In this document: positions 1-60,303 of the stretch, piece after piece | Layout: the number at the start of each line of letters is the position of its first letter | Position numbering within the stretch: the first letter of the stretch is position 1 | NCBI GenBank assembly: GCA_029571985.1 | Contig: JAKQVC010000223.1 | Location: 1-64,000 of the forward strand | Source of the DNA: Bacteroidota bacterium | Lineage (GTDB): Bacteria; Bacteroidota; Bacteroidia; Chitinophagales; BACL12 | Direction: 5' to 3' | DNA: 64,000 nucleotides | Made by a program: the position numbers and the translations under genes | The notes under the pieces: model-generated | The model's database searches: none | Told to the model about the DNA's origin: nothing | Seen by the model: only the letters and a program-made list of their open reading frames with translations

Positions 1-297
1 GGCTGATTAAATTTTTGTTTTGTCAGGGTGTGGCCTTACGGCTCAAAAAAGTTTGAAATGCGGCTCAAGTGTTTTTCTCAATTCGCAAAATGCGTAACAC
101 AAAGATACACACATATTCTCATATTTCCAAATTTATGGGAACGATATAGATAATGGGCGTGGAATTAGCGTTAAAATTGAGTCTTTTCTAAGCCTGTAAA
201 CACATATAATATCTTTTAAACTAAATTATATTTTAGGATAGCCTAAATATTATGGGGTTTGCAATGGATGCGTGTATTCCTTAGATTAGCGTAAAAT

Positions 298-415
298 AGT
301 AAACCGCAGGGACAACGTGTTATATTCGAGGGGCGGTAGTATAGGTAGTTCAGGCAATGCCTAACGGGCTACGGTATGCTATCTTAACCAACGAGTAATA
401 CGCCTGCGGCTTACT
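298..415 (+). ncRNA. candidate structured RNA 1 (long imperfect hairpin)
   Basis: No ORF covers this stretch, but it folds into one long nested hairpin. Bases 298-310 pair with 403-415 (12 of 13 pairs). Bases 316-323 pair with 395-402 (8 pairs, two G-T). Bases 335-343 pair with 375-383 (9 pairs, two G-T). Bases 345-348 pair with 369-372, and the tip 352-355 pairs with 359-362 around AAT. The G-T pairs would be A-C mismatches on the other strand, so a plus-strand RNA is favoured over a DNA cruciform. I see no convincing promoter or terminator. It resembles no RNA family I recognise. Confidence 0.45.
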
Positions 416-468
416 GTTTCACTAAGGTAGTACAATAGTAACAAACACACCCAAAACCCTTTTTGCTT

Positions 469-705
469 ATGATTAAAAAGCTATTAGCACCGTTCAAAGC
501 ATTGCCTTTAGGCTATTACAGGTTGTTCCTCTTGTTTTGGGCTGCAACAGCTATCGTATGCCTTGCAATGCCTAGCAATTTGGATTCAGAGTTTGAGCCT
601 GTTGACCCTTTTATATGGCTGTTTTTTGGCATTGTAGGCTATTATTTGCTGATGCGGATAGTTTTATGGGTTTACAACGGATTTAAACAAGATAAAACCA
701 AATAA
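469..705 (+). CDS. small two-helix membrane protein, unknown function
   Basis: This 78-residue protein starts at the ATG at 469; the TTG two codons earlier is less likely. It has two hydrophobic segments, at about residues 17-37 and 46-68, with a short acidic loop between them and a lysine-rich C-terminus, so it should sit in the inner membrane. I do not recognise the family. It is the first gene after the long hairpin at 298-415 and is followed after 10 bases by a frameshifted small gene on the same strand, which suggests one transcript. It belongs to the AT-rich accessory stretch. Confidence 0.5.
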   Translation: MIKKLLAPFKALPLGYYRLFLLFWAATAIVCLAMPSNLDSEFEPVDPFIWLFFGIVGYYLLMRIVLWVYNGFKQDKTK

Positions 706-715
706 ATACTATTAT

Positions 716-989
716 ATGACATTTGAAGAAGCGGTAACTAAAAAAACAGTCAATAGGCACGGCCTATCAAAAATTAGACGAAAACGGTAAATATTATCTT
801 TATACTGTGTTTATCTCACCTGCAAACGAAATGGATTTTAACCAATTTAAGAACCATTTTCACAACTACACACTTAACAATGGTCGAATACCTGATGATG
901 ATTTTGCGCAAAGATTTTGCACTAATGGCGATTATAGGGTTGTGGGTTTTACTCGACTTTCTGGCGTCATTATTTATGATGCCTTATAA
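716..989 (+). pseudogene. small hypothetical gene with a frameshift in an A run
   Basis: An ATG at 716 opens a frame of 25 codons that ends in TAA at 791-793 region. The frame 0 sequence that follows has no ATG near its start but reads as a good protein of about 80 residues ending at 989. The two join smoothly if one A is removed from the seven-A run at 740-746, giving a protein of about 90 residues that begins MTFEEAVTKKQSIGTAYQK. The likely cause is a one-base insertion, a read error, or much less likely a programmed +1 shift. The family is unknown. Its 3' end overlaps the convergent gene at 974-1162 by 16 bases. Confidence 0.45.
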
Positions 990-1162
990 GGATTTTCGCC
1001 CGACCATATATGAGGGGTAGCTATGACTTTTTTACCATCCCAAGAAATAACCAAGTCAAATAAGTTTGGTGTGGTTTTGATGTAATTTTGAATAATCTCA
1101 TTTAGTGCAAAATTCAATTCTGAAAGCCTTTTTGCCTCATATTCTATTGCTATAGATTTCAT
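974..1162 (-). CDS. small hypothetical protein
   Basis: This 62-residue ORF starts with ATG at 1162 and stops at 974. The N-terminal half is a likely amphipathic helix (IEYEAKRLSELNFALNEIIQ). The C-terminal half is richer in beta-type residues, including a WDGKK turn. I do not recognise a family. It overlaps the end of the convergent frameshifted gene by 16 bases, so one of the two may be a chance ORF. It lies in a stretch of small unknown genes that change strand often, as in mobile islands. Confidence 0.35.
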   Translation of the reverse strand: MKSIAIEYEAKRLSELNFALNEIIQNYIKTTPNLFDLVISWDGKKVIATPHIWSGENPYKAS

Positions 1163-1365
1163 CTTTATTATTTTTTCTAAGGTACAAATTATACCGTATT
1201 TAGCCCTGTTTTACCCTTTGCCTAACAAGGAGAAGGCATTTTTAGGCACATAATTTTACCCGTACTTTATTTTTGGTAAAAAGGTATGATTTACTGCAAA
1301 TTTTAACTAAAAAAATTAGGTAGATATTGGGCGTAAATATATCTTTATGTTTCATTCACGATTAA

Positions 1366-2322
1366 ATGCAAAGCCAATTCACGAACTTATTACAACTGCA
1401 ACGCTACTTCACAGACGAACTAGTTTGTGTGCAATACTTAGAGCAATCTCGTTGGGCAGGTAATCCGTTTTGCCCTCATTGTGGTAGTGAACATCATTAC
1501 CGCACTAAAACCCGTTTTAAGTCACCTGAATTAAAGGATTACAAGGACTTTAGATGCAAAGCCTGTGATAAAAAATACACGGTATTGACAGGCACAATAT
1601 ATGAGTCCTCTAAAATACCCCTTAAAACATGGTTTGCAGCCGTTTATCTGTGTACCGCACATAAGAAGGGTATTAGCTCGCATCAGTTAGCCCGTGATTT
1701 AGGTATTACTCAAAAAACCGCATGGTTTGTCTTACACCGTGTTCGGGCTATGCTGCAAGAAAATAGCCCCGAATTACTACAAGGTGACGTTGAGATAGAC
1801 GAAACCTTTATTGGCGGTAAGGAGCTTAATAAACACAAGTCAGACAGGGCGAAAAACAAAAAGCCGAACTCACTTAGAACCAACAATAAGACCGCTGTTA
1901 TCGGAGCGGTAGAACGTGATGGAAAGATTATGGTAAAGAAGTTAGATAGATTAGGGGCTAAGGCTATGAGGGAATTTGTGACTACCAATATTGACGATAG
2001 CGCCAATATCCATACAGATGAATTTGGGGGATATAATCAGTTAGAACGCTTAGGATATAACCATCAATCAGTAAGGCATGGAGTAGGTGAATATGTAAGG
2101 GGCGACGTGCATACAAACACGATTGAGGGTGCATGGTCGCTCCTGAAACGGGGTATAATAGGTATTTATCATTCAGTTAGCCCTAAACATCTGCATAGAT
2201 ACTGTGTAGAGTTTGAGTACCGCTACAATACCCGTAAAATCAAAGATGCTGAACGCTTTGCAGACGCACTAAAGAAAACAGGCAATACAAGACTGCCTTA
2301 CAAACTTTTGATAGCGGAATAG
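1366..2322 (+). mobile_element. IS1595-family (ISXO2-like) transposase
   Basis: This 318-residue protein is a full-length transposase. Residues about 36-67 form a zinc ribbon (CPHCG and CKAC). A helix-turn-helix-like part follows (SSHQLARDLGITQKTAWFV). The ISXO2-type DDE nuclease core has Asp in VEIDETFIGG, Asp in IHTDEFGGY and Glu in HTNTIEGAWSLLKR. The ATG at 1366 sits 18 bases after a TATCTTTA promoter element (1340-1347). I could not find convincing terminal inverted repeats or a target duplication by eye, so the ends of the element are not set. The reading frame is intact and could be active. Confidence 0.88.
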
Positions 2323-2501
2323 GGGATTTTAACAGGAAGTCTGAATTTTTTTTTATTAAGTTTTCCCCTACGGTTTTTACGTTTTGGCTCGGTAAACCTA
2401 TTAATATAACAAGTTTTCGGCATTCTGGAAAACCTGTTGCGCCAACAAGTTTTGCAAGTTTTTAAACCATTATTTTGTAACGCTAGGTGAGTAAATAAAA
2501 A

Positions 2502-2530
2502 TGCCCCTCAACTTGTAAAGCAAAGGGGCA
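2502..2530 (+). terminator. hairpin, terminator-like
   Basis: TGCCCCT at 2502-2508 pairs with AGGGGCA at 2524-2530 around a 15-base loop, and AT-rich sequence follows. It lies between the transposase and the tRNA-like gene and could end the transposase transcript. The T run is weak. Confidence 0.35.
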
Positions 2531-2548
2531 AATATTAATTTTGTTTTT

Positions 2549-2622
2549 GGGCGGTTAGCTTAATTGAATAAAGCGGTACTTTGGCTTAGTCCCAGATAAC
2601 GGTTTGAATCCGTTACCGCCCA
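2549..2622 (+). tRNA. tRNA-like gene, anticodon GGC, isotype uncertain
   Basis: The 74 bases fold into a full cloverleaf. The acceptor stem is 2549-2555 with 2615-2621 (7 of 7 pairs). The D stem is GCTT with AAGC. The anticodon stem has 4 of 5 pairs, with one T-C mismatch. The T stem AACGG/CCGTT is perfect. The anticodon loop is TTGGCTT, giving GGC with U at position 37, where a purine is normal. Conserved contacts U8-A14 and A15-U48 are kept. The usual G19-C56 contact appears as A19-U56, a paired change that suggests selection. The G3-U70 pair that marks alanine tRNAs is absent, so charging is uncertain. CCA is not encoded. It sits beside an insertion sequence and may have arrived on a mobile element. 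Confidence 0.5.
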
Positions 2623-2780
2623 TTTTTTGTTACTCTGCTTTAACGCTGAATAACGATACAAAAGTATCTAGATACTAGATTAGAAACAAGGATTTCTCCA
2701 AATTTATTTTCATTCTTATTTCATTGAAAATCAACAAGTTATAAACATTTTAACTTAAAATGTTATTTTACTATTGTAAG

Positions 2781-2807
2781 ACAATGTAACTTTATGCGTT
2801 ACAATGT
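2781..2807. promoter_or_regulatory. inverted repeat, likely operator of the ribbon-helix-helix gene
   Basis: ACAATGTAAC at 2781-2790 and GTTACAATGT at 2798-2807 form an inverted repeat with one mismatch and a 7-base spacer. It ends 12 bases before the ATG of the ribbon-helix-helix gene. A further ATTGTAAG lies just upstream. Such proteins usually repress their own promoter through sites of this kind. Confidence 0.5.
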
Positions 2808-2819
2808 AATACAAATATA

Positions 2820-2960
2820 ATGAAAAAGGAAGAAACGGTTACAATTCGCATTTCTGCTGAATTAAAAAAGAAGTTAAAAGAATTGGCAGAAAAGGATAAA
2901 AGGAAGTTATCTGATTTTATTCATATAGTATTAGAGAACTACACGAAAATTCCATTTTGA
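2820..2960 (+). CDS. ribbon-helix-helix DNA-binding protein
   Basis: This 46-residue protein matches the Arc/CopG ribbon-helix-helix plan. A short beta strand (TVTIRISAEL) is followed by a first helix (KKKLKELAEKD) and a second helix (LSDFIHIVLENY). Such proteins dimerise and bind DNA through the paired strands, and many are antitoxins or plasmid copy regulators. It is below common gene-caller limits, but its composition and the operator-like inverted repeat just before it support it. The next gene (3007) has its own promoter element, so a toxin partner is not shown. Confidence 0.7.
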   Translation: MKKEETVTIRISAELKKKLKELAEKDKRKLSDFIHIVLENYTKIPF

Positions 2961-2988
2961 GGGTCAAGTTCAAAATTGGAAAAAGTCC

Positions 2989-2996
2989 TAACTTTG
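2989..2996 (+). promoter_or_regulatory. TAnnTTTG promoter element for the 3007 gene
   Basis: TAACTTTG matches the Bacteroidota -7 element exactly and ends 10 bases before the ATG at 3007, so the leader would be only a few bases long. Confidence 0.45.
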
Positions 2997-3006
2997 AGAA
3001 AAAACA

Positions 3007-3294
3007 ATGGAACACCTTACAACTCCTGCATGGGTTCATGATGTGATGCTTGATATTGTATGTGACGGTAAAGTACTTTATGAGATAGATAATACGAATG
3101 CAAAATTAAAGGATGTTGTCTTTGAAACGAGAAGCATTAAAAAAGGCTCGTTTATTTGGATAAAAGACAATCAGTATCAAATAGACGAAATACAATTCGA
3201 CTCATTTGGCAATGAAATCAATTCTGAATCAGAATTTACAATGTATTACATTCGCCTATATGTTCACCAAATGATAGAAAAAAGGCTTTTTTGA
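3007..3294 (+). CDS. hypothetical protein
   Basis: This 95-residue protein has no family I recognise. It looks soluble, with alternating charged and aromatic residues and a beta-rich middle (SFIWIKDNQYQIDEIQFDS). The start is the ATG at 3007, placed just after a TAACTTTG element. Its final 59 bases overlap the end of the convergent gene 3236-3598, so transcription of each would run into the other. It could be the partner of the ribbon-helix-helix protein 46 bases upstream, but nothing in its sequence shows toxin activity. Confidence 0.45.
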   Translation: MEHLTTPAWVHDVMLDIVCDGKVLYEIDNTNAKLKDVVFETRSIKKGSFIWIKDNQYQIDEIQFDSFGNEINSESEFTMYYIRLYVHQMIEKRLF

Positions 3295-3598
3295 AAACTT
3301 CTTTTACCAGTTCAATATCCTCGTTGGGGACTGGGTTAAACCCGCTAGTCCAATAATATTCAAATTTATTAAAGTATTTAATACAGGCAATTTTTGCCAA
3401 TTCCCTATCCCCAAATTGTTTAATTAAATTTGAAGGTATATTGTTTGAAGCCAAAACAGCGTATTCAGTTCCTTTATTCATAGAAACAAAACTACTATCA
3501 ATTACATAATTAGGGGACGTTTTGCGGTTTGCCTGTTGAGCTTTTTTAATCAGCATCTTAACCAACAAAGTTTTTATTTGAGCTTCATTTTTTCCCAT
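3236..3598 (-). CDS. hypothetical protein
   Basis: This 120-residue protein is of unknown family. The N-terminal 25 residues are a lysine-rich helix, and the rest appears to be a mixed alpha/beta fold with an aromatic patch (KYFNKFEYYWTSGFNP). No signal peptide or membrane segment is present. The ATG at 3598 is the only good start. The gene overlaps the convergent 3007-3294 gene by 59 bases. It lies next to the candidate RNA at 3661-3940, which is transcribed away from it. Confidence 0.45.
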   Translation of the reverse strand: MGKNEAQIKTLLVKMLIKKAQQANRKTSPNYVIDSSFVSMNKGTEYAVLASNNIPSNLIKQFGDRELAKIACIKYFNKFEYYWTSGFNPVPNEDIELVKEVFKKAFFLSFGEHIGECNTL

Positions 3599-3647
3599 AG
3601 CATATATTTAGCAAAACCAAATTTAGGGCTTTATTTGTTTTAGATAC

Positions 3648-3655
3648 TATCTTTA
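3648..3655 (+). promoter_or_regulatory. promoter element of candidate RNA 2
   Basis: TATCTTTA is the form of the -7 element used before several protein genes in this window. A TTTG lies upstream at 3634-3637, though nearer than the usual -33 spacing. Transcription would begin near 3661. Confidence 0.4.
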
Positions 3656-3660
3656 CACCA

Positions 3661-3940
3661 CAAAAGGCAATAGCCCGTAAACGCTCCTTAATGAGAGGAT
3701 TATTTACAGGCTTTCAGGTTGTATCTGTTTGCAACCTTATTGCATACCAACGGCGGCAACCATTGGATTGAATAACAAGGAGTTCTTTTCGTTTTAGGGT
3801 GTAATTCTATTCCAACTTATGAGGGTGGTAAATTTCTCCCCTCCGTATGTTCGGAGTGCAATATCTGATTGTTACATTATTACGAAAAGAGGGTGTCCCC
3901 TTATTAAGCATTTTAGAAGGCTGTTTATTCAGCCTTTTTT
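3661..3940 (+). ncRNA. candidate structured RNA 2 (about 280 nt, own promoter and terminator)
   Basis: A 320-base gap between genes holds a chain of hairpins. H1 pairs 3672-3681 with 3703-3712 (9 of 10). H2 pairs 3716-3721 with 3732-3737. H3 pairs 3747-3753 with 3760-3766 (6 of 7). H4 pairs 3784-3792 with 3882-3890 (9 of 9), supported by 3777-3780 with 3899-3902 and 3800-3804 with 3872-3876. Inside H4 is the tip hairpin CTCCG/CGGAG (3841-3856). A clear intrinsic terminator ends the unit at 3918-3940, and a -7 element precedes it. No ORF of note is present. I see none of the marks of tmRNA, RNase P or SRP RNA. Confidence 0.55.
3918..3940 (+). terminator. intrinsic terminator of candidate RNA 2
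   Basis: AGGCTG (3918-3923) pairs with CAGCCT (3930-3935) around TTTATT, followed by a run of T on the plus strand. The minus-strand side lacks a clean T run, so it mainly serves plus-strand transcription. It overlaps the stop of the minus-strand gene at 3925. Confidence 0.65.
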
Positions 3941-4401
3941 AGTTTTATTAGTTTACCATCCCTTACAAACCGTTCACCCCTATTTACCCCTACAATAGCC
4001 GATATACGGGCTGCAAGGTCTGGGTTATCCCAGATTAACAGGTCATCATCCAAAGCCCTTAATTCCTTAGCTATTTGCCCCGTAGTCAGCCCATCAGGAA
4101 ACCTGACAAGGGCATAGGCTATCTTATCCGCCCATGTTAGGGAACGTTTGTACTGTTCGGGTATAGGGTTGGCATTATCCCCATCCTGTTCGATAATAAA
4201 CTCCATACGCTTTATTTCTACATTCAGCACGTCAATAGTACGCTCTCTATCTACTATCTGCCTTTTGAGTTTCAGTATAGCATCCTGTTCTTTTGTCCTT
4301 GCTTGCTGCAAAGAGGTAAGTATTACCCGTTTTGCTGTAATCGTTTCCATAAACCCTCCAACTTTAACGGCTGCGAATTTATCGTACACTTTAACATTCA
4401 C
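3925..4401 (-). CDS. coiled-coil protein with C-terminal winged-helix-like domain
   Basis: The protein has 158 residues from the ATG at 4401. An in-frame ATG at 4350 with GGAGG just upstream could be the true start, giving 141 residues. Residues about 25-75 form a coiled coil (ILKLKRQIVDRERTIDVL). The C-terminal 65 residues look like a winged helix: LTTGQIAKELR is the likely recognition part and RFVRDGKLIKL the wing. It may bind DNA as a dimer. Similar small proteins occur in phage-like regions of Bacteroidota, but I cannot name this family. It is the last minus-strand gene of the accessory stretch. Confidence 0.55.
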   Translation of the reverse strand: MNVKVYDKFAAVKVGGFMETITAKRVILTSLQQARTKEQDAILKLKRQIVDRERTIDVLNVEIKRMEFIIEQDGDNANPIPEQYKRSLTWADKIAYALVRFPDGLTTGQIAKELRALDDDLLIWDNPDLAARISAIVGVNRGERFVRDGKLIKLKKAE

Positions 4402-4459
4402 CCCCGAAAACCCGTTTGGCTTGAATACATTTTTTTCAACCTTTGTGGATTATTTTTAG

Positions 4460-4467
4460 TAAATTTG
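4460..4467 (+). promoter_or_regulatory. TAnnTTTG promoter element
   Basis: TAAATTTG lies four bases before the ATG at 4472. TTTG at 4442-4445 is the only nearby -33 candidate and is closer than usual. Confidence 0.4.
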
Positions 4468-4471
4468 CAAT

Positions 4472-4615
4472 ATGGGCAAGACGTCAAAACCCCGTACCAC
4501 TAAGAAGGAGCGCAAAAGCACCTACGAAAAAAAATTGTCTATAAATGGCAGTTTTGAGGATGTTATTAAGGCTTCATTCAAGAAGGCAAATAAAGCCCCT
4601 AAGAAGGACAAATAA
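4472..4615 (+). CDS. small basic protein, Bacteroidota type
   Basis: This 47-residue protein is lysine-rich. It has a basic, likely disordered N-terminus (MGKTSKPRTTKKERK) and a short conserved-looking core (LSINGSFEDVIKASF). Small proteins of this shape are found beside many genes in the phylum, and their role is unknown. The ATG follows a TAAATTTG element (4460-4467) by only four bases, so the mRNA would be nearly leaderless. It is divergent from the coiled-coil gene at 3925-4401. Confidence 0.55.
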   Translation: MGKTSKPRTTKKERKSTYEKKLSINGSFEDVIKASFKKANKAPKKDK

Positions 4616-4685
4616 GGGCTATGAAACGCCCAAACGCCCGTAGTCTTTAACTTTTACGCCCATTTAATATATCGTTGCCAAATTT

Positions 4686-5936
4686 TCAAGGCATAATTTT
4701 TACCGTAAGCACGGTAATATCATCACTCACAACGCCGTGAAAACCTTTGAAGTGCATGATTTCATTGATGATTTTTTTGTTGATAGCATCAACGGGATGC
4801 GTATACTCGCGCTGGATTAATCGAGTCAACTCTTCGAGAGGAAACACCTGATTATGTTCATTGACTACGTCTGTTAAACCATCTGTATAACACACAATAA
4901 CAGATTCTTCATTTATCACCAATTGACCCATTTTAACAGACGGGAGTGTGTCAAACATACCTAAAATGGTGGTGCCCCGGTCGAGCATTTTGGCGCCATG
5001 ACTATTTACTAAAATTGGAGGGTTATGTCCGGAGTTTACATACTTCAAAACACCGGTTGTCCGGTCATATTTCCCCAGGAATAAGGTGATAAATTTTTCA
5101 CCTTTTGTGCTCATCAAAACACCTTTGTTTAATTCCTGCATGTACTCTTCAACCGTTGGCGGGTTTCTTTTGGTAAGCTCACGGATTTGCGCCTGAAAAT
5201 TAGCCATAAGGATAGCAGCCGCTATACCTTTACCAGAAATATCCGCTATGCAGAAGAAGGTTTCCTTGTTGCTTAATTCCAAACAATCATAATAGTCGCC
5301 GCCAATGTTCTGGTGGGGCAAATAAATGGCCGACATCTGCACCTGATCATTATTAGGCAGTTTATCAGGAATGAGCATGCTTTGCACCTGGGCTGCGAGT
5401 TCTAGCTCGCGTTTAAATGCCTGTTGCTGTACTTCCTTTTTGAAAAGTCGTTTATTTTCGATTGCAACAGAAATGATATTAGATACCGTTTGAGCAAACT
5501 TTACTTTATCTTCCAGCGGTTCGTAGCTTTCAACTTTGGGATTACTCATCAGTAGAAAGGCTAATGGTTTGTCTTTATGATAAACAGGAATCAGTATATC
5601 GAAATCTTTAAGTGCTTCTGGCATATCCTCCCCCACATCACGGAGATAGGTGAGCGAATCAAATTTGAGCAAGGCGTCAATTAAATCCGGGTTGAGCTCA
5701 GCGATTATTTTGTTTCCGATTACCGGTTCCCAATCATCGCCATTATTACTATAGAGTAATAATTCTTCGACTCCGATTTGATCGCGCAGGGTACGGTGAA
5801 ACAATTCGAATAATGCACTTGCCGATTTATTACTGTTAATAGCCTTGGTAATTTCCAAAAATGCGTCAAGCTCCAGTTGCTTTAAAATCAACTGTTTACG
5901 CAGCATATCCATTACATTGAGTCCGGCGATTGACAT
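4686..5936 (-). CDS. GAF plus SpoIIE-type PP2C phosphatase (RsbU-like)
   Basis: This 416-residue protein is cytoplasmic. A GAF-like sensor covers residues about 20-165, then a short linker helix, then a PPM/SpoIIE serine phosphatase from about 185 to the end. Metal and active-site motifs are intact: GGDYYDCLEL, ADISGKG, VNSGHNPP, CYTDGLTDV and DDITVL. Proteins of this type dephosphorylate anti-anti-sigma factors in partner-switching systems, but no such partner (STAS or kinase gene) is in this window. It lies 77 bases downstream of the permease gene on the same strand and may be co-transcribed with it. Confidence 0.88.
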   Translation of the reverse strand: MSIAGLNVMDMLRKQLILKQLELDAFLEITKAINSNKSASALFELFHRTLRDQIGVEELLLYSNNGDDWEPVIGNKIIAELNPDLIDALLKFDSLTYLRDVGEDMPEALKDFDILIPVYHKDKPLAFLLMSNPKVESYEPLEDKVKFAQTVSNIISVAIENKRLFKKEVQQQAFKRELELAAQVQSMLIPDKLPNNDQVQMSAIYLPHQNIGGDYYDCLELSNKETFFCIADISGKGIAAAILMANFQAQIRELTKRNPPTVEEYMQELNKGVLMSTKGEKFITLFLGKYDRTTGVLKYVNSGHNPPILVNSHGAKMLDRGTTILGMFDTLPSVKMGQLVINEESVIVCYTDGLTDVVNEHNQVFPLEELTRLIQREYTHPVDAINKKIINEIMHFKGFHGVVSDDITVLTVKIMP

Positions 5937-9590: not shown

Positions 9591-12419
9591 ATGCCAAAGG
9601 ATACATCCATTAAGCACGTATTGATTATTGGTTCAGGACCGATTATTATTGGCCAGGCCTGCGAATTCGACTATTCCGGCTCTCAGGCCAGTCGCAGTTT
9701 GCGTGAAGAAGGCATACGTGTTTCGCTGATCAACTCGAATCCGGCTACCATTATGACCGACCCGGTTACTGCCGATCAGATTTATTTATGGCCACTGAAT
9801 GTTGCGTCTATTGAAAAGATTTTACAGGAAAATATTGATAAAGGCACACCTATAGATGCTGTTTTACCTACCATGGGCGGGCAAACAGCACTCAATTTAG
9901 CCAAAGAGGCATTTGAACTGGATATCTGGAAAAAATATAATACCCGACTTATCGGTGTAGATATCGAAGCCATTGATCGCGCTGAAAACCGTGAGTTATT
10001 CAGACAATTGATGGTAGAGTTAGGAATTGGTGTTGCACCAAGTCATGTGGCAAACAGTTTTCTGGAAGGAAAAGAATTTGCACAACAAATTGGATTCCCG
10101 CTGGTTATCAGACCATCTTTTACATTAGGTGGAACCGGTGGAGGATTTGTGCAATCGAAAGATGAATTAGATGCGGCTTTGATGCGCGGATTAACTGCCT
10201 CGCCAACACATGAAGTATTAGTGGAGAAGGCTGTGTTGGGATGGAAAGAATATGAATTAGAATTATTGCGGGATGCGAATGACAATGTGGTAATTATTTG
10301 TGTGGTTGAAAACCTTGACCCGATGGGTGTGCATACCGGTGATTCAATAACCGTTGCGCCGGCCATGACCCTGAGCGACAGTTGCTATCAAAACATGCGT
10401 AATCTCGCCATTAAAATGATGCGGGCCATGGGCAATTTTGCGGGTGGATGTAACGTGCAGTTTGCCCAGGATCCTTATACCGAGCAACTGATTGCCATTG
10501 AAATTAACCCACGTGTTTCCCGTTCATCGGCACTCGCTTCAAAAGCTACCGGTTATCCGATTGCAAAAATTGCCGCTAAACTGGCAATAGGATATAATCT
10601 GGATGAATTAAATAATCAAATCACCAAATCTACATCAGCGTACTTCGAACCTGCTTTGGATTATGTGGTGGTGAAAATGCCACGTTGGAATTTCGATAAA
10701 TTTCCGGGAGCAGATGATACACTTGGATTGCAAATGAAAAGTGTGGGCGAAGTGATGAGCATCGGTCGCAGTTTTCAGGAAGCGCTACAAAAAGCCTGTC
10801 AAAGTCTGGAAAATAATAAGATAGGTTTAGGCGGAGAAAAAGGGTTTTATAAATCATCGCAGGAAATTATTGATAGCCTTGCAAAACCACACTGGGACCG
10901 AATATTCAATATCAAAAAAGCGATGGATTTAGGTGTTCCGGTGCGGACTATCCATAACCAGAGTTTAATTGACCCATGGTTTCTGATGCAGATTCAGGAT
11001 TTGGTGAAGATTGAAAAAGAAATGCGTCGATATCAGTTAAATAATATCCCGCGCAAGCTGTTGCTCGAATTAAAACAAAAAGGGTATAGCGATATCCAGA
11101 TTGCGAATAATTTAGGTTGCACTGAAGATGAAGTATACAATCACCGCAGGTCGTTAGGCATTAAACGCACCTATAAATTAGTTGACACCTGTGCTGCAGA
11201 ATTTGAAGCGAAAACACCTTACTACTATTCTACATTTGAAGATGAAAATGAAAGTGTAGTTAGCGATAAGAAAAAAGTAATTGTGCTTGGTTCAGGTCCA
11301 AACCGAATCGGTCAGGGAATTGAATTTGACTATTGTTGTGTGCACGGCGTACTAGCCATCAGGGAAAGCGGCTATGAAGCCATTATGGTGAATTGCAATC
11401 CTGAAACTGTTTCTACAGATTTTGATATTGCAGATAAATTATATTTCGAGCCGGTATTCTGGGAACACTTATGGGAATTAATTGAACATGAAAAACCGGA
11501 AGGTGTGATTGTTCAGTTAGGTGGACAAACGGCGCTGAAGTTAGCCCGACAATTGCATGATCGCGGTATACGCATTATCGGTACATCGTTTGATGATATG
11601 GATATAGCGGAAGATCGCGGCAGGTTCTCTGATTTATTAAAAGAGTTGGGCATCCCCTATCCGGAATATGGTGCAGCTACTACCGTAGAAGAAGCCGTTG
11701 AAGTGGCGCATCGCATCGGTTATCCGGTGTTGGTTCGTCCGAGTTATGTATTGGGTGGTCAGCGCATGCGGATTGTCATCAACGATGAAGAATTAGAGCG
11801 TTCAGTTATCGGCATCCTGAAACATTTTCCCGACAACCGGATTTTAATTGATCATTTCCTTGATCGCGCCGAAGAGGCAGAAATTGATGCGATTTGCGAT
11901 GGCACAGATGTGCACATCATGGGCATCATGGAACATATTGAACCGGCAGGTATTCACAGCGGAGATTCCAGTGCGGTATTACCTCCGTTTAATTTAAGCG
12001 AACGCGTTTTAGAACAAATGCGCGCTTACACAGAAAAGATTGCATTTGCATTAAATATTCGCGGTTTAATTAACATACAATTCGCCATAAAAAATGAGCG
12101 TGTGTATGTAATCGAAGCCAATCCACGTGCATCGCGCACCACGCCGTTTATTGCTAAAGCCTATCAAATTCCATATTTAAATGTAGCCACTAAGGTGATG
12201 TTAGGTGTAAACACACTAAAAGATTTCACCTTCGACAAAAAACTAACCGGCTACGCCATAAAAGAACCGGTTTTCAGCTTCGAAAAATTCCCGAACGTAA
12301 ACAAAGAACTCGGTCCCGAAATGAAATCCACCGGCGAAGCCATCCGCTTCATCGCCGATTTACAAGATCCGTTTTTCAGAGAGATGTATTCGAAGAAGTC
12401 GATGTTTTTATCTAGGTAG
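9591..12419 (+). CDS. carB: carbamoyl-phosphate synthase large subunit, short form
   Basis: This 942-residue protein joins two ATP-grasp halves that make carbamoyl phosphate from bicarbonate, ammonia and ATP for pyrimidines and arginine. The halves begin with IIGSGPIIIGQACEFDYSG and VLGSGPNRIGQGIEFDYCC. The first holds EINPRVSRSSALASKATGYP and the second VIEANPRASRTTPF, both ATP/Mg sites. The E. coli protein has about 1073 residues; the C-terminal MGS-like allosteric domain is missing here, which I recall as usual in Bacteroidota. carA is not in the window. The stop TAG runs directly into the GTGAGTGGTGA repeat array. Confidence 0.97.
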   Translation: MPKDTSIKHVLIIGSGPIIIGQACEFDYSGSQASRSLREEGIRVSLINSNPATIMTDPVTADQIYLWPLNVASIEKILQENIDKGTPIDAVLPTMGGQTALNLAKEAFELDIWKKYNTRLIGVDIEAIDRAENRELFRQLMVELGIGVAPSHVANSFLEGKEFAQQIGFPLVIRPSFTLGGTGGGFVQSKDELDAALMRGLTASPTHEVLVEKAVLGWKEYELELLRDANDNVVIICVVENLDPMGVHTGDSITVAPAMTLSDSCYQNMRNLAIKMMRAMGNFAGGCNVQFAQDPYTEQLIAIEINPRVSRSSALASKATGYPIAKIAAKLAIGYNLDELNNQITKSTSAYFEPALDYVVVKMPRWNFDKFPGADDTLGLQMKSVGEVMSIGRSFQEALQKACQSLENNKIGLGGEKGFYKSSQEIIDSLAKPHWDRIFNIKKAMDLGVPVRTIHNQSLIDPWFLMQIQDLVKIEKEMRRYQLNNIPRKLLLELKQKGYSDIQIANNLGCTEDEVYNHRRSLGIKRTYKLVDTCAAEFEAKTPYYYSTFEDENESVVSDKKKVIVLGSGPNRIGQGIEFDYCCVHGVLAIRESGYEAIMVNCNPETVSTDFDIADKLYFEPVFWEHLWELIEHEKPEGVIVQLGGQTALKLARQLHDRGIRIIGTSFDDMDIAEDRGRFSDLLKELGIPYPEYGAATTVEEAVEVAHRIGYPVLVRPSYVLGGQRMRIVINDEELERSVIGILKHFPDNRILIDHFLDRAEEAEIDAICDGTDVHIMGIMEHIEPAGIHSGDSSAVLPPFNLSERVLEQMRAYTEKIAFALNIRGLINIQFAIKNERVYVIEANPRASRTTPFIAKAYQIPYLNVATKVMLGVNTLKDFTFDKKLTGYAIKEPVFSFEKFPNVNKELGPEMKSTGEAIRFIADLQDPFFREMYSKKSMFLSR

Positions 12420-19942: not shown

Positions 19943-19974
19943 AACCCCTGCTGTCAAGTCAGACAACAGGGGTT
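19943..19974 (-). terminator. hairpin terminator after the POT genes
   Basis: AACCCCTG (19943-19950) pairs with CAGGGGTT (19967-19974), with further inner pairing TGTC/GACA. It lies 22 bases past the stop at 19996. The T run is short. Confidence 0.5.
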
Positions 19975-29367: not shown

Positions 29368-29417
29368 TTTTTAAAGGCATGATGCTGTGGATGGGAGGTT
29401 TAGGTTTTTGACGGAGG

Positions 29418-29453
29418 GTAGTGAGTAGTGGGTAGTGAGTAGTGAGACGAATG
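29418..29453 (+). repeat. GTAGTGAGTAGTGG-type repeat, copy C
   Basis: Degenerate TAGTGAG and TAGTGGG units ending in GTGAGACG. They are matched in inverse by 29518-29552. Confidence 0.8.
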
Positions 29454-29468
29454 CAGAAATGCAATTCG

Positions 29469-29516
29469 ACTTCGTCGAATGAAGAATACAAATAATTCGA
29501 CGAAGTCGAACTGGGC
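29469..29516. repeat. inner palindromes between repeats C and C'
   Basis: ATTCGACTTCGTCGAAT and AATTCGACGAAGTCGAA are each hairpins and reverse complements of one another. With C and C' they make the whole gap a nested inverted repeat. Confidence 0.75.
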
Positions 29517-29517
29517 C

Positions 29518-29552
29518 GTCTCACTACTCACTACCCACTACCCACTACCTGC
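29518..29552 (-). repeat. GTAGTGAGTAGTGG-type repeat, inverted copy C'
   Basis: CGTCTCACTACTCACTACCC and following units, inverse of copy C. Ends about 80 bases before polA. Confidence 0.8.
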
Positions 29553-58512: not shown

Positions 58513-58549
58513 AAAAAGCTGTCTCGATGGGATTGAGACGGCTTTTTTT
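58513..58549 (+). terminator. intrinsic terminator of htpG
   Basis: AAAAAGC-GTCTC pairs with GAGAC-GCTTTTTTT around a short loop; a long T run follows. Confidence 0.75.
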
Positions 58550-58906: not shown

Positions 58907-59395
58907 TCACGCAGAGGCGCGGAGAAATGCAAAATATTCTGCGCTGATCTGCGAAAATCTGCGGGAGAAAAAAGGGTTTCCCGCGAATTTTCGCAGATGA
59001 ACGCAGATGAATGCAGACGAAGGCAGATGTATGCAAGAATTTACTCTGCGCAAATCTGCGTACATCTGCGGGAGAAAAAAGGGTTTCCCGCGGATTTTCG
59101 CAGATGAACGCAGATGTATGCAAGAATTTACTCTGCGAAAATCAGCGTACATCTGCGGGAGAAAAAAGGGTTTCCCGCAGATTTTCGCAGACGAACGCAG
59201 ATGAATGCAAGAATTTACTCTGCGCAAATCAGCGTACATCTGCGGGAGAAAAAAGGGTTTCCCGCAGATTTTCGCAGACGAACGCAGATGTATGCAAGAA
59301 TTTACTCTGCGTAAATCTGCGTACATCTGCGGGAGAAAAAAGGGTTTCCCGCGGATTTTCGCAGATGATCGCAGATAAATGCGATTAATCCTATC
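58907..59395 (+). repeat. five CGCAGAT-type tandem repeats, 87-bp period
   Basis: The block TGCGGGAGAAAAAAGGGTTT recurs at 58961, 59068, 59155, 59242 and 59329. The last three steps are exactly 87 bases. Each unit holds GGGAAACCC-type pairing arms and CGCAGATGAACGCAGATG. Several ORFs run through in different frames and are artefacts of the repeat. Confidence 0.88.
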
Positions 59396-59406
59396 TGCAC
59401 ATCTCA

Positions 59407-60303
59407 CTATTTTTTAGGTAAATCATATAAATCATTAAACTTGACCAAATCATATTGCGGAGAACATTCAAATAAATGCGTAAGAATAGCAGCATGACCG
59501 GCGCCGATGATGACTAATATTCTATCTTCAGGTCCGGTGGTGATATCCTGAATATTTCGATAAATACGCAAATTCCGACTATACCAATGCATAGCCAGGG
59601 CATCTGCACCGCGTGAATCTCCCAGCGTAAAATCACCATTTAAATACGCGCCATAACCTCGGTCCAACATACGGTCATCATTCATCAGTGCGAAATAATC
59701 ATACAAAGGCATGTGCGCCGCAATACTGTCGTCCAAATCATAATACCGCGCATAACGCAGAGAAATACTATCCTCAGCCTTAAAATCCCAATCGGCATAT
59801 ATGCTGTCAAAAATCGGATGCAATACACTGCTGTCGCGATGATCCCAGATATCAAACAGAAACGGAACAGCATTAATACCATAAATGGTATCCAATTCAA
59901 ATTTCCGCATCAACCGAAATCCTATCTGATCAATTTCGCTTCTTTTTAATTTTTCTTTTCCTTTAATCCAGTCGCGATATCTATACATCAGGTATCCGGT
60001 AATTGGCCCTGATTCAACCGCAATTTTAGTTGGCTGGAAAGCGCTGATCAGCTCAACTAAACTATCCAGCTCCTGTTGGCGTTGTTTATCCAATACATCT
60101 ACCTGATCATCTTCTGCTGTTTTGTGCGCATCCAGGTTGTAATAACCAAAATGAAAACTGCCTAAAATCAGCACCTGAGGCGCGGGTTTATTCTCAGTTA
60201 ATGTGTTTTCAAGTAAAGCAATGCCCTGCTCAACTTGTGGTGTTTGTGCATGAAGTTGACCAAACATGATCAGCATCAAAACCGGAAGTGAAGTAATACG
60301 CAT
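59407..60303 (-). CDS. secreted TraB/GumN-like protein (DUF5694 type)
   Basis: This 298-residue protein has a signal peptide (to HAQ, about residue 19). The domain begins PQVLILGSFHFGYYNLD, has KIAVESGPITGYLMYRYR in the middle and closes with ILVIIGAGHAAILTHLFE. These are the GxxH, Glu and GxGH positions of the TraB/Tiki superfamily, and the overall shape fits the Bacteroidota DUF5694 group. Tiki relatives are metalloproteases, but activity here is unproven. Its stop lies about ten bases from the tandem repeats. Confidence 0.75.
   Translation of the reverse strand: MRITSLPVLMLIMFGQLHAQTPQVEQGIALLENTLTENKPAPQVLILGSFHFGYYNLDAHKTAEDDQVDVLDKQRQQELDSLVELISAFQPTKIAVESGPITGYLMYRYRDWIKGKEKLKRSEIDQIGFRLMRKFELDTIYGINAVPFLFDIWDHRDSSVLHPIFDSIYADWDFKAEDSISLRYARYYDLDDSIAAHMPLYDYFALMNDDRMLDRGYGAYLNGDFTLGDSRGADALAMHWYSRNLRIYRNIQDITTGPEDRILVIIGAGHAAILTHLFECSPQYDLVKFNDLYDLPKK

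Follow-up and report, generated by a model that had tools for sequence, protein, structure and literature searches.

A gene-free gap in a Bacteroidota accessory island is a small-RNA candidate ending at an intrinsic terminator

Bacteroidota commonly produce independent transcripts that are often structured and have few distant relatives (PMC9723704). In Flavobacterium psychrophilum 85 new independent transcripts were reported, and 18 of the 45 non-antisense members have a strong predicted structure (PMC9723704). Here we compare with these a locus from a 4.0 Mb genome, about 97% complete, that is assigned to Bacteroidota from its gene content and an earlier note. The window, by which we mean the whole stretch of DNA that was analysed (64 kb, positions 1-64000 of contig C60), contains a gene-free gap at 3661-3940, for which the earlier note had proposed a new structured RNA with its own promoter and terminator.

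The gap lies between two minus-strand genes, 3236-3598 (120 aa) and 3925-4401 (158 aa, or 141 aa when counted from the ATG at 4350), and its sequence is single-copy in the genome. No open reading frame longer than 34 aa falls entirely within 3661-3925 and a six-frame Pfam scan of 3600-3925 returned no protein family, bearing out the original description of the gap as empty of genes. Both neighbours are orphans. The divergent 120-aa gene carries a promoter box of its own, the full match TAAATTTG near 3625; it belongs to no family and has no usable relative. The predicted structures of the two proteins are of low confidence (mean pLDDT 46 and 60); in such a model, the convergent 158-aa protein combines a coiled coil with a C-terminal part that may be a winged helix.

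The strongest part of the transcript candidate is its terminator. On the plus strand, AGAAGGCTG-TTTATT-CAGCCTTTT and a T-rich tail form an intrinsic terminator at 3915-3945 (hairpin 3915-3938), which overlaps the convergent gene at its final codons and stop. The clean terminator previously described at this end is thus real, and sites this good are scarce: under a strict definition there are four on both strands of the window, this one included. Two of the others (19945-19972 and 58519-58541) lie just past the ends of core genes, while the remaining one is inside a gene on the opposite strand. The 620 nt upstream of the hairpin hold no plus-strand gene, the preceding one being 3007-3294. Based on this strong terminator with no plus-strand gene between 3295 and 3915, it seems probable that some plus-strand transcript ends at 3915-3938. 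A same-strand intrinsic terminator is also expected of an independent bacterial sRNA, and the hairpin with its tail provides one.

The other end of the putative transcript is less distinct. The element said to precede the gap, TATCTTTA at 3648-3655 on the plus strand, does exist: it weakly resembles the -7 box of Bacteroidota promoters (consensus TAnnTTTG; PMC9723704), agreeing at five of six positions and predicting a start near 3660. However, when sites were scored by the -7 box plus a -33 term, 405 equal to or better than TATCTTTA were found across both strands of the window, 128 kb in all, about one every 316 nt per strand. At this density a site of the same grade would fall within a given 60 nt by chance in about 17% of cases. 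Such sites occur at background frequency, and TATCTTTA is a weak promoter candidate.

To assess the fold, folding energies were compared with dinucleotide shuffles. The plus strand of 3655-3945 folds at -82.4 kcal/mol, with z of -3.84 against -4.53 for the minus strand. For the candidate non-coding transcript body, 3660-3906, from which the terminator is left out, z was -2.71 and -2.55 on the plus strand and -4.04 and -4.40 on the minus strand. Among the 406 (of 516) tile-strands of this length, 247 nt, that the scan of the window took in, the minus strand ranked 6th and the plus strand 22nd. When the window is cut into 150-nt tiles, the terminator-bearing tile is the only one of the gap to stand out. 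The plus-strand fold is better than that of shuffles but modest once the terminator is set aside: above average, though not exceptional on the strand that the earlier note chose.

The hairpins themselves were largely placed correctly. The plus-strand fold contains those at 3673-3711, 3716-3737 and 3747-3766 and an arm core at 3783-3891, but the outer extension of the arm (3773-3782 with 3897-3906) is a continuous helix on the minus strand only. The CTCCG/CGGAG tip that the earlier note put at the end of the arm is absent from the plus-strand minimum free energy fold, in which its bases are paired instead to 3810-3813 and 3821-3825; only the minus-strand fold has it as a hairpin. The minus strand folds better because A.C mismatches on the plus strand become G-U pairs in hairpin 1, hairpin 3 and the arm base, giving runs of 11 bp, 8 bp and, at the arm base, 10 (10+9) bp. 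The plus strand does better in hairpin 2 and in the upper arm, so the strand cannot be chosen from folding alone.

Other structured sequences were seen in the same window. A rod-like hairpin of about 140 nt at 280-460 has a z of -3.8 on the plus strand versus -0.5 on the minus strand (-8 in tiles) and no Rfam match. It has a second genomic copy, 94% identical, at 9728-9908 of locus L070, at the end of contig C132. Of 54 base pairs, 52 are kept in the two copies, each of which lies upstream of a different small open reading frame. As a candidate for a structured RNA, this hairpin is stronger than the gap. A very strong intergenic inverted repeat occupies 29401-29550 (z about -15 on both strands), and a repeat array at 58907-59407, strongly structured on both strands and reading as copies of LRSSAKICGKPFFLPQMYADLRRVNSCIH in a minus-strand frame, is probably a set of intergenic repeats and not a gene.

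Relatives of the gap were sought with blastn in 100 relatives, 398 genomes of the order (the two sets overlap), 50,697 phage records and 72,556 plasmid records. Only the gap itself and short chance matches were recovered, leaving the check for homologues and covarying substitutions proposed in the earlier note with nothing to align. Two single-sequence covariance models, one of the arm and one of the 5' domain, were each run over 349 genomes of the order and returned the gap and, between them, one additional match. Scoring 26.6 bits (E 0.0086) in a single one of the 349 genomes, this match is positioned opposite a TonB-receptor-like gene, and we attribute it to chance. Exact stem-pattern matches in viral contigs were likewise chance and found no support in the covariance models; one of them is a terminator hairpin of another phage. 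The neighbouring proteins fared similarly: no relative of the 158-aa protein turned up among 395 genomes of the phylum, nor when 84,980 species genomes were scanned with a pattern, and the 120-aa protein has none in species genomes, phages or plasmids. Each has a single weak match in viral contigs, and those contigs carry no similar RNA. With no homologue of the gap and orphan genes on both flanks, there is consequently no covariation evidence for the structure. The analysis shows three things: the terminator sequence, the lack of a gene and the lack of detectable relatives.

Comparison with known RNA families agrees with the earlier note, which by eye could match the gap to no class it knew: Rfam 15 gave no match at gathering score anywhere in the window. 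The best match below threshold was RAGATH-22 (RF03098) on the minus strand at 3877-4041, a weak likeness of 29.6 bits where the gathering score is 120.3. Its score is only a quarter of the threshold, most of it falls within the coding end of gene 3925-4401, and we regard it as chance. The 6S-Flavo model (RF01685) did not match the gap; a search of the whole genome was also empty, but carries little weight, as the control for this model likewise gave no match.

The gap does lie in an accessory stretch, as had been suggested, and more exactly in an island between two core genes. These are window 4686-5936, which we take from its sequence to be a phosphatase gene, and L070 8061-9521, presumably an O-antigen-ligase-like gene. 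In a genome of the same genus (G001) the homologues directly adjoin each other (L045 8096-9559 and 9556-10806). In the present genome the ligase-like gene lies at the end of contig C132, with 1.8 kb of accessory sequence after it, and window 1-4685 is accessory DNA that runs up to the phosphatase gene. By synteny, we infer that the two contig ends (L070 9522-11322 and window 1-4685) border a single island, 6.5 kb or more in length. Repeats are shared between the two ends: window 129-496 with L070 9578-9944 (92%), 135-269 with 11072-11206 (80%), 1213-1301 with 10985-11073 (85%) and 4492-4595 with 11219-11322 (92%). The outermost ends carry inverted copies of GGGAACGATAT...GGGCGT (L070 9586 and window 4656-4680). 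This setting, with repeated end modules placed between two core genes, makes a more promising lead than the RNA does.

The island also contains an IS1595-family transposase gene (window 1366-2322) and a single tRNA-like gene (2548-2623) called as Ala(GGC). The identity pair of tRNA-Ala is G3-U70; by eye this gene has G3-C70 and seems to lack G3-U70, and it is possibly a mobile-element tRNA.

How, then, should the gap be read? One possible account, second to the reading we prefer, is that it is a non-functional spacer of a mosaic island, its hairpins arising from chance pairing or as remnants of inverted repeats and its terminator merely stopping read-through. The lack of relatives for the gap and its neighbours, the unremarkable 150-nt tiles outside the terminator and the construction of the island from repeated pieces all suit a spacer, whereas the full-length fold (z -3.8 and -4.5) and the specific plus-strand terminator do not. 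It is unlikely that the minus strand is the functional one, as a structured 3' UTR or processed 3' end of gene 3925-4401. That gene does end at 3925, right before the fold, and the minus strand has the better z (-4.0 to -4.4 against -2.6 to -2.7) and the long runs (11, 10+9 and 8 bp) with G-U in place of A.C; but its last hairpin has no T-rich tail, and it is the plus strand that does better in hairpin 2 and the upper arm and that bears the strong terminator.

Two further readings of the gap have very little to recommend them. The putative transcript encloses a plus-strand open reading frame of 26 aa at 3691-3771 (MRGLFTGFQVVSVCNLIAYQRRQPLD), and the RNA might be the mRNA of a small gene. The missing Shine-Dalgarno sequence would not disqualify it, since Bacteroidota naturally lack such sequences (PMC6847099); even so, 26 aa is within the range of chance, the frame has no family or relative and the loop of hairpin 1 contains its start codon, which makes a small gene highly improbable. 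Lower still, and close to negligible, is the probability of an orphan retron msr-msd RNA. The resemblance is one of general layout only, short hairpins followed by one long arm, while reverse transcriptase (PF00078) is absent from this genome, which is about 97% complete, in a search whose control matched in three genomes. Nor is there a clear a1/a2 pair inside the transcript, because 3655-3659 would precede the start predicted for it. Similarly disfavoured is an integron attC site: the minus strand has an imperfect long arm, two basal stems and a bulge, but neither window 1-4700 nor L070 from 9501 onwards contains the R-boxes RYYYAAC/GTTRRRY, and no integrase scored above the integron cut-off.

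The reading we prefer, at roughly even chances, is a lineage-specific, island-borne plus-strand transcript that has no coding region and ends at a real terminator. Its transcription, start site and function are matters of inference. It may be an independent sRNA of about 285 nt with its start near 3660; alternatively, it may be the extended 3' portion of a transcript from gene 3007-3294. Either way it would end at the terminator at 3915-3945. If active at all, such an RNA would most likely act by base pairing with mRNAs. Its 3' end would be antisense to the final codons of gene 3925-4401, which makes that convergent gene the obvious first target.

The proposal of a new structured RNA is not borne out, given the missing homologues, a promoter at background frequency, a modest plus-strand fold bettered by the minus strand and a tip absent from the plus strand. 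A new class of accessory non-coding RNA on a mosaic island of this Bacteroidota lineage, perhaps acting with the 120-aa or 158-aa orphan protein, is quite a doubtful prospect. The gap is an ordinary, unproven small-RNA candidate and nothing shows a new RNA class; the RNA would gain in importance only if relatives covary or a link to an orphan protein appears.

Among described systems, the Rfp sRNAs of F. psychrophilum are close to the candidate. They differ in having been observed by RNA-seq, and many are conserved within a species or genus (PMC9723704), whereas the gap is known from its sequence alone and has no relative. The likeness is that both are short, non-coding and bounded by a promoter, or here a promoter-like box, and an intrinsic terminator, in the same phylum, with 40% of the non-antisense Rfp sRNAs structured (PMC9723704). 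If the plus-strand RNA is really made, it would be one more lineage-specific sRNA of the sort that RNA-seq finds by the dozen.
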